From: Candidatus Omnitrophota bacterium
GTDB lineage: Bacteria > Omnitrophota > Gorgyraeia > Gygaellales > Profunditerraquicolaceae
Assembly (NCBI GenBank): GCA_028713155.1
Contig: JAQTPA010000013.1
Location: forward strand, 1 to 36,333
Length of the DNA stretch: 36,333 nt
Direction of reading: 5' to 3'
In this document: in pieces, positions 6,256 to 7,922 of the stretch
How the letters are laid out: every line of letters starts with the position of its first letter
Numbering within the stretch: position 1 is the first letter of the stretch
The notes under the pieces: model-generated
Database searches by the model: none
Seen by the model: only the letters and a program-made list of their open reading frames with translations
Told to the model about the DNA's origin: nothing
Made by a program: the position numbers and the translations under genes

Positions 6256-7770
6256 TTAGTAAAGCTTGTTCCCCCTTCTTCCTACTGGGTCAAAACCAAA
6301 GAGTTCTTCCAGGCGTTCGGGGATTTTCTCGGAAAGAATACTTAGAGTCGCAATAGCCAACTCCATTTTTTCCCGGAAGAGCTCGCAGCTCTTCTGGTAG
6401 GGGAGAGCGGGGTCACGGTTAAAATAGTAGTTAATGTTAAGACATGAGCCTGTGGTGCGGCAGAGAGAAAATAAGAGGCACCCCCGGCAGTGCTTAAAGC
6501 GCTTACTGACTGTTTTTAGAAAAATGCTGAGTTTTTTCTTCTCCGGGCCGTTATTAATATTACCCAACTTGAATTCCTCTATACCCAGAAAAGAAGTGCA
6601 AGGATAGATACCGCCATCAATATCAATAGCAAGCTGCCCTACTGCCGCCGGACAGCCACCAGTTACCTCATGGTGGTAATAGAGCCGCTGCATTAGTTTG
6701 AAGAACCGATTGAAAAAGGTCTTGCGGTAATCCAGGAACCCGCTGACTGTATCCTTGATATAGCGCTTGGCCAGGCGTTCGTACTGACGGCAAAGCCGCC
6801 GGTGCTGCCTGTCGGTGCTAAAGAAAAAACGCTCCCTCTGCGGCGTTAGACGATGACAGGCATCTTCACTCTCAAAAAGCTCAACCCGTTCAAAGCCGAG
6901 TTTGCGCAAATTTTTATATAAACTACTCATATCAGGGTAAAAGGGTGTGACCGTAGCGCGACCAACCAACCTCTTCAAAACCCCCTTCGGCATGCCTTTT
7001 AGGTTACGCGTAATGGTGTTAAAACTCCCCTTACCGCCGGCAAAAGGCCTGTTCCGATCATGAACTTTCTTGGAGCCGTCAATACTCACCGCAATCTGGA
7101 CACCTTTTTTAAGAAGAGTACCGGCAATCTTGGGAGTAAGGAGCGTACCATTAGTAGCCAGAAGAAAATGAAAATTTACTCCCCACCTTTTTTGGTTCTT
7201 ACGGCAATAATCAACAGTAGCCAAAAGAGTTTTAAGGTTTAAGAGAGGTTCTCCGCCGTAAAAATCAACTACCAGGTCTTTATCTTTTCCACATGACCCT
7301 ATCAGTATATCCACGGCCTTACGCGCGACTTGAATAGGCATTTGGCTGTTTTTAACATAGCCAGTCGATTCCAAAGTTTTATCTTTTCGGAAGGTCCGGT
7401 TAGAGTAGGTACCCTGGTCATTCCAACAGTAGCTGCAGCGCAGGTTACAGTGAGAAGTCAAATTAAGCGTAATATCGGTAATGGCCTTGGCGACAGGTTC
7501 TTCTTGAAGCTGTGATCTACAAGCCGACAAGGGGAATAAATCAACGATATGCTGCGGGATGCGGTATTTCTGCGTTAACCTCCAGACGGTGCGTGGAGAA
7601 GGCCTTGCTTTGCAATTGGAAAGTTCATTATTCCATTGCTGTAAAGCAGCATATGTGCTGGGTGATAAATCGTAAAAATCACCTGAAACGGTGGAAATAC
7701 CAAGATAACGGCCGAGTTTCTTGAAGAGATAAACCGGAAGTTTAAAAGTGGGGGTTTTATTTATACTCAC
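6256..7770 (-). CDS. Radical SAM/SPASM peptide maturase-like protein (GTG start)
   Basis: CNLRCSYC (CxxxCxxC), FYGGEPLL, SIDGSKKVHDRNRP, C-terminal SPASM Cys array (C-x12-GGIYPC ... HCRGCLLFSLCRTTGSC ... KSC). Confidence 0.9.
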   Translation of the reverse strand: MSINKTPTFKLPVYLFKKLGRYLGISTVSGDFYDLSPSTYAALQQWNNELSNCKARPSPRTVWRLTQKYRIPQHIVDLFPLSACRSQLQEEPVAKAITDITLNLTSHCNLRCSYCWNDQGTYSNRTFRKDKTLESTGYVKNSQMPIQVARKAVDILIGSCGKDKDLVVDFYGGEPLLNLKTLLATVDYCRKNQKRWGVNFHFLLATNGTLLTPKIAGTLLKKGVQIAVSIDGSKKVHDRNRPFAGGKGSFNTITRNLKGMPKGVLKRLVGRATVTPFYPDMSSLYKNLRKLGFERVELFESEDACHRLTPQRERFFFSTDRQHRRLCRQYERLAKRYIKDTVSGFLDYRKTFFNRFFKLMQRLYYHHEVTGGCPAAVGQLAIDIDGGIYPCTSFLGIEEFKLGNINNGPEKKKLSIFLKTVSKRFKHCRGCLLFSLCRTTGSCLNINYYFNRDPALPYQKSCELFREKMELAIATLSILSEKIPERLEELFGFDPVGRRGNKLY

Positions 7771-7791
7771 AGGATAAGCGCAAGAATAGGC

Positions 7792-7875
7792 TTACCAGAG
7801 CACTCTACCGGAACGGCAATAACGCGAAAGTTTCTTTTTTGCCTTTAGGGCCTTATTTATTCTAGTGGCTTTCAT
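7792..7875 (-). CDS. 27-aa basic micro-ORF, candidate RiPP precursor peptide
   Basis: Manual translation MKATRINKALKAKKKLSRYCRSGRVLW*; AAGGAG (7882-7887) 6 nt upstream of ATG; consensus promoter upstream; radical SAM gene begins 21 nt after its stop codon. Confidence 0.65.
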   Translation of the reverse strand: MKATRINKALKAKKKLSRYCRSGRVLW

Positions 7876-7894
7876 TATTTACTCCTTGGTAGAA

Positions 7895-7922
7895 ATTATA
7901 ATCTTTTTAATGAAATAGTCAA
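7895..7922 (-). promoter_or_regulatory. Sigma70-type promoter for the micro-ORF/radical SAM operon
   Basis: Minus strand TTGACT (7922-7917), 16-nt spacer, TATAAT (7900-7895). Confidence 0.75.

Follow-up and report, generated by a model that had tools for sequence, protein, structure and literature searches.

Is the 27-codon open reading frame that precedes a radical SAM gene in an Omnitrophota bacterium a real gene, and is its product the substrate of the neighbouring enzyme? The question was raised by a first-pass annotation of a contig of 36,333 nt (hereafter the window; JAQTPA010000013.1), made from the sequence alone, which proposed an undescribed RiPP locus on the minus strand. RiPP precursors so short and basic slip past gene callers and family models.

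Sequence features of the locus

Direct reading of the minus strand recovered everything that had been claimed for the open reading frame itself (translation MKATRINKALKAKKKLSRYCRSGRVLW, then stop): its 27 codons, the AAGGAG sequence 6 nt before its ATG, the 21-nt gap that separates its stop codon from the enzyme gene, and the GTG start of the latter (Table 1). The promoter is present as well, an 11/12 match and the single promoter-like site between 7700 and 8050, but 0.9 such sites are expected in shuffled sequences. By itself the match is thus not beyond chance, and the case for the peptide gene rests on comparison. A purine-rich, Shine-Dalgarno-like stretch lies 5′ of the ATG in most of the peptide genes described below.

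No match to the peptide was found in Pfam or NCBIfam at E values up to 1, the best PHROGs match was no better than 0.05, and neither a PDB search for homologues nor a search of viral contigs for the peptide tail gave a match. Rfam returned no structured RNA between 6000 and 9500. The strings SRYCRSGR and RYCRSGR were not found in the open-access literature, a scope that leaves out most subscription papers.

Table 1. Coordinates of the features of the locus in the window
Feature	Position	Strand	Basis and remarks
-10/-35 element TTGACT-N16-TATAAT	7895..7922	minus	Direct reading: TTGACT starts at 7922, 16-nt spacer, TATAAT ends at 7895; sigma-70-like promoter, 11/12 match; also in the 87% relative L024
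Shine-Dalgarno AAGGAG	7882..7887	minus	6 nt 5′ of ATG
Candidate precursor peptide gene, 27 aa	7792..7875	minus	ATG at 7875, TAA at 7792; putative Lys-rich leader with [IVL]N[KR] motif, then invariant C-terminal core LSRYCRSGRVLW
Radical SAM/SPASM peptide maturase, 504 aa, GTG start at 7770	6256..7770	minus	Sequence, family models, fold
Radical SAM motif C108xxxC112xxC115	7426..7449	minus	Direct reading, orthologue alignment
SPASM seven-cysteine region C373-C462	6385..6654	minus	Direct reading, orthologue alignment
N-terminal three-strand and helix region, residues ~10-90, RRE-like	7501..7743	minus	Position, CteB fold match; candidate leader-docking site (modelled)

The peptide gene is strictly conserved beside the enzyme gene

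Scanning GTDB genomes with the enzyme yielded 14 orthologues from Omnitrophota and two more from Elusimicrobia MAGs, 16 in all. Flanks could be read in 15 of them (Omnitrophota and the two Elusimicrobia), 56-87% identical to the enzyme of the window. The check proposed in the first-pass annotation, namely a search for a conserved micro-ORF near orthologues, gave a clear answer: all 15 loci contain one, of 27-47 aa, terminating exactly in LSRYCRSGRVLW, so that the 12-residue C-terminal tail is identical throughout. It lies directly upstream of the enzyme gene in 13 loci and downstream, on the opposite strand and convergent, in the other two (L025 and L033). The synonymous bias named in that check is complete. 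The 18 distinct DNA sequences of the tail differ by at least 29 substitutions, all synonymous; random change would give this outcome with a probability of about 10^-17.

The N-terminal part, on the other hand, is Lys-rich, of low complexity and variable in length, the [IVL]N[KR] motif being conserved at a variable distance. Net charge ranges from +9 to +22. In every peptide the core is free of Asp and Glu; it also lacks Thr and holds Tyr, Cys and Trp at invariant positions. Two traits by which RiPP systems are recognized are hence found here: a variable leader followed by a conserved core, and a short ribosomal precursor gene linked to a modifying enzyme. Further copies of the peptide gene occur in G074, next to an IS3-like transposase, and in G173 (C10; L124:3019-4199), where a second gene with an intact tail lies by a decayed enzyme copy, the intact pair being on C17.

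Presence and absence of the two genes also agree across 386 Omnitrophota genomes. The tail pattern matches 14 of these genomes, and the enzyme (E 1e-60) is found in exactly those 14; relaxing the pattern to CRxGRVLW followed by a stop added no genome. The pattern search demands the tail sequence and retrieval by the enzyme does not, yet both give the same outcome. Peptide-positive and peptide-negative genomes are interleaved inside one genus (g13), and the hypergeometric probability of the co-occurrence is 10^-25 when phylogeny is ignored and 10^-13 at genus level. Among 200 genomes of the phylum of one of the Elusimicrobia MAGs (L036, genome G403), one has both genes and none has one alone. 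Our results show that the peptide gene is real and strictly conserved, and that it has kept a SPASM peptide maturase as its durable partner.

G074 additionally encodes a paralogous enzyme (L030:5365-6819; 42% identical) with its own upstream micro-ORF, MIRLLNRSKGKRRYRAAFCRCGRVLW, whose tail is AAFCRCGRVLW. Paralogue and variant peptide have diverged together, and this pair narrows the signature to [YF]-C-R-[SC]-G-R-V-L-W-COOH. For a 46% identical enzyme (L005, in G009) no matching peptide pattern was found in the fragmented assembly.

Assignment of the enzyme to the peptide-modifying SPASM proteins

The reading of the 504-aa product as a radical SAM protein with a seven-cysteine SPASM array stood up to alignment, since the three radical SAM cysteines and the SPASM cysteines C373, C391, C428, C431, C437, C443 and C462 are invariant in the 16 orthologues. 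Sequence and fold agree in assigning it to the peptide-modifying SPASM group, again as suggested. Its best family matches are the maturases of the PapB ranthipeptide (NF047865, the best NCBIfam match, 234.4 bits versus a cutoff of 340), nif11 (TIGR04064, 208.1 versus 518.7), QhpD/PeaB (TIGR03906, 195.6 versus 453) and SCIFF (TIGR03974, 193 versus 425, with 259 bits for the paralogue) types, none of which reaches its cutoff. Among solved structures, the SCIFF maturase CteB (5why and 5wgg; fold match at E 1e-27) is nearest in both sequence and fold, a likeness that extends to the N-terminal domain and the SPASM cysteines.

The substrates of these relatives are unlike the peptide described here. 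The SCIFF precursor is a six-Cys peptide, whereas the 27-mer of the window has one Cys and a Thr-free core, and the paralogue's peptide has two. The nif11 peptides are much longer. QhpD, which like the nif11-type enzymes falls in the same SPASM sub-group and among the plasmid tblastn matches, acts on a protein subunit at Cys-Asp/Glu and not on a short peptide whose core lacks both acids. PapB, also a peptide-modifying SPASM thioether enzyme and to that extent alike as a group, needs a Cys-Xn-Asp/Glu motif, absent from every peptide core here, and couples the Cys to the carbon adjacent to a carboxylate (PMC9413430). With Asp, Glu and Thr all missing from the core, the chemistry of PapB, QhpD and SCIFF maturases is not simply transferable, and the acceptor must differ unless the C-terminal carboxylate itself serves. 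The acceptors of the closest thioether enzymes being missing, new chemistry is likely.

In locus L028 a single frame runs through the peptide, its TAA and a 29-codon spacer into the enzyme, which allowed the read-through to be modelled with AlphaFold as a single polypeptide. Residues 1-10 have a mean pLDDT of 85 and form a beta-strand (residues 3-5) beside the conserved INK motif, while residues 11-65 fall below 50 and the core (11-27) is unplaced. The expectation of a Lys/Arg-rich helical leader is thus borne out for its Lys-rich character; a helix is called only with low confidence (13-20), and the confident part is extended. Leaders usually bind RREs as a beta-strand (PMC12710340). Capture of the leader by the RRE-like N-terminal domain is nevertheless suggestive only, because the peptide is present in just 3 of the 23 rows of the underlying alignment.

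Several minor features of the enzyme gene were observed. The C-terminus of the maturase (6256-6300) carries a conserved G(R/K)RGN(K/E/Q)LY-COOH tail in all orthologues, and an unrelated YCRxNxxxW stretch lies within the enzyme. In L026, L030, L031, L034 and L039 (and L027) the reading frame has no ATG, GTG or TTG around the conserved N-terminus; what looks like the start codon is an ATT or ATC, preceded in some loci by a GGAGG-like sequence, which, if so, would be a case of rare AUU/AUC initiation. The 87% relative has an extra SPASM radical SAM gene (L024:6839-7945, weakly TIGR04317-like) between the maturase and a comM-like gene; the window has none at this comM-side position.

A B12-binding radical SAM protein accompanies the pair in Omnitrophota

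In Omnitrophota the peptide-enzyme pair is accompanied by a third, often unlinked component, a BchE-like B12-binding radical SAM protein (B12-rSAM) that scores below every NCBIfam cutoff. A copy at least 70% identical occurs in all 14 peptide-positive Omnitrophota genomes and is unlinked to the pair in 8. In a draw of 316 genomes, such a copy was found in 12 of 12 positives and in 0 of 304 negatives, 5 of the latter having only a separate paralogue of 45-48% identity. In L026, L027, L031, L032 and L039 the gene immediately follows the SPASM gene, and in L030 it immediately follows the paralogue. In the genome of the window it is unlinked to the window and cut at a contig end (G000:C1:1-480). 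Elusimicrobia have no B12-rSAM orthologue; other B12-rSAM genes, 20-26% identical, adjoin their peptide.

The neighbours of the B12-rSAM gene vary, comprising a U32-peptidase-like gene, a second B12-rSAM, glycosyltransferases, or a UbiA prenyltransferase paired with a variant radical SAM protein. The U32-like proteins (L115, at G000:C1:1-20000, and L116-L130) are members of a multi-copy family, about 340-400 aa long, that starts with (V/I)PTNW, matches U32 peptidases in part and often lies by the B12-rSAM gene. The UbiA gene and an MSMEG_0568-like variant radical SAM gene adjoin it in L119, L120, L124 and L125, with an additional FPP synthase in L125, a neighbourhood that suggests a prenylated product.

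Proposed pathway and alternative explanations

We infer that the peptide is the substrate of the enzyme and is chemically modified by it, and that the locus is, with good probability, a minimal operon for a RiPP family not yet described, with leader capture, core modification, a B12-rSAM and one fixed product. The Lys-rich N-terminal part with its [IVL]N[KR] motif would be the leader, captured by the RRE-like domain of the SPASM enzyme, which would then modify the core LSRYCRSGRVLW, most likely through an oxidative cross-link involving the single Cys. The Omnitrophota pathway would also need the BchE-like B12-rSAM encoded elsewhere in the genome, acting either as a second maturase or as the protein that the mature peptide specifically serves. 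Against the proposal, the peptide-enzyme loci have no linked protease or exporter.

Because the core is constant across two phyla, the product is probably a single, unvarying compound of cofactor or signal type rather than a diversifying bacteriocin. In its invariant core, minimal operon and unlinked partner, the system is closer to cofactor RiPPs than to bacteriocins. Mycofactocin and PQQ share with this system a short precursor, an invariant core, a SPASM radical SAM enzyme and co-occurring client genes. No homologous precursor or accessory genes of theirs were found here, however, and the candidate client is a radical SAM B12 protein. MftA is defined by a C-terminal Val-Tyr, whereas the peptide here ends in Val-Leu-Trp. 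The MftC model (TIGR03962) is absent among the best 25 families for the enzyme, the 25th of which scores 51 bits, so that its score must lie far below the cutoff of 265. MftG is found almost only alongside mft genes (PMC11778925). That maturation of the peptide yields a new cofactor of RiPP origin, PQQ/mycofactocin-like in kind, with the BchE-like B12-rSAM as its dedicated client, is an idea we hold only tentatively, and the odds are against it. To our knowledge, no B12/radical SAM enzyme has a precedent for being served by a cofactor derived from a peptide. With an invariant core and an unlinked partner, such a role can be tested directly.

A compatible variant of the RiPP reading, somewhat less improbable than the cofactor role although still short of an even chance, is that the pathway makes a secreted bioactive or signal peptide, with the B12-rSAM serving solely as a second maturase (for C-methylation or aryl cross-linking, for instance). 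The product could then be a signal or a natural product that is modified twice. This variant accounts for the six loci in which the B12-rSAM gene adjoins the SPASM gene or its paralogue, and B12-rSAMs do cross-link other RiPP precursors, as in the pbs cluster (PMC12257519). Clusters of the pbs type combine a B12-rSAM with a precursor that has a strict aromatic/Arg core motif (PMC12257519), and are in both respects like the system described here; unlike in these, no MNIO or arginase was identified among the neighbours, and it is the SPASM enzyme that would take the first step. The variant is harder to reconcile with the 8 genomes in which the B12-rSAM is unlinked and lies among glycosyltransferase, U32-like or UbiA genes, with its missing orthologue in Elusimicrobia, and with the invariance of the core, given that the cores of bioactive RiPPs usually vary.

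Readings without a modified peptide fare worse. The peptide might be a small basic partner that binds the radical SAM enzyme (or RNA, or the ribosome) and stays unmodified; its high positive charge and acid-free core would suit this, and the obligate co-occurrence would equally suit a subunit. We consider it rather unlikely, as a variable low-complexity N-terminus in front of an invariant C-terminal dozen is the pattern of leader and core, the enzyme falls within a peptide-maturase clade, and Tyr, Cys and Trp are fixed in the core. Far less credible is that the enzyme is an anaerobic sulfatase maturase and the peptide incidental. A sulfatase-fold gene does lie directly upstream (7984-9360), and the anSME models match weakly, but the 80 and 86 bits obtained compare with cutoffs of 349 (TIGR03942) and 441 (NF010321). 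Maturable sulfatases carry C/S-x-P-x-R, whereas direct reading of the neighbour gives T-A-P-S-N; moreover, conservation among the neighbours extends to the peptide but not to the sulfatase gene. This function was hence rejected. The neighbour itself is a membrane protein with Thr in place of Cys/Ser, perhaps a phosphotransferase. The remaining explanation, a translated leader (attenuator) regulating the enzyme gene, has practically nothing left to recommend it: 13 of the 15 loci are upstream and co-directional and hairpins occur in the peptide-enzyme gap at 3 loci, but it was rejected because two peptide genes with the identical tail lie downstream on the opposite strand. Copies also stand beside a transposase and a decayed enzyme gene, and what is conserved is the amino-acid sequence, not the codon choice.

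The comparative evidence thus yields a three-gene hypothesis with an exact core, in phyla almost without cultured members, in which the minimal RiPP operon is the preferred reading. Elsewhere in the window, the open reading frame list places a lysine 2,3-aminomutase-like gene by two tandem D-Ala-D-Ala-ligase-like ATP-grasp genes (20616-23791).
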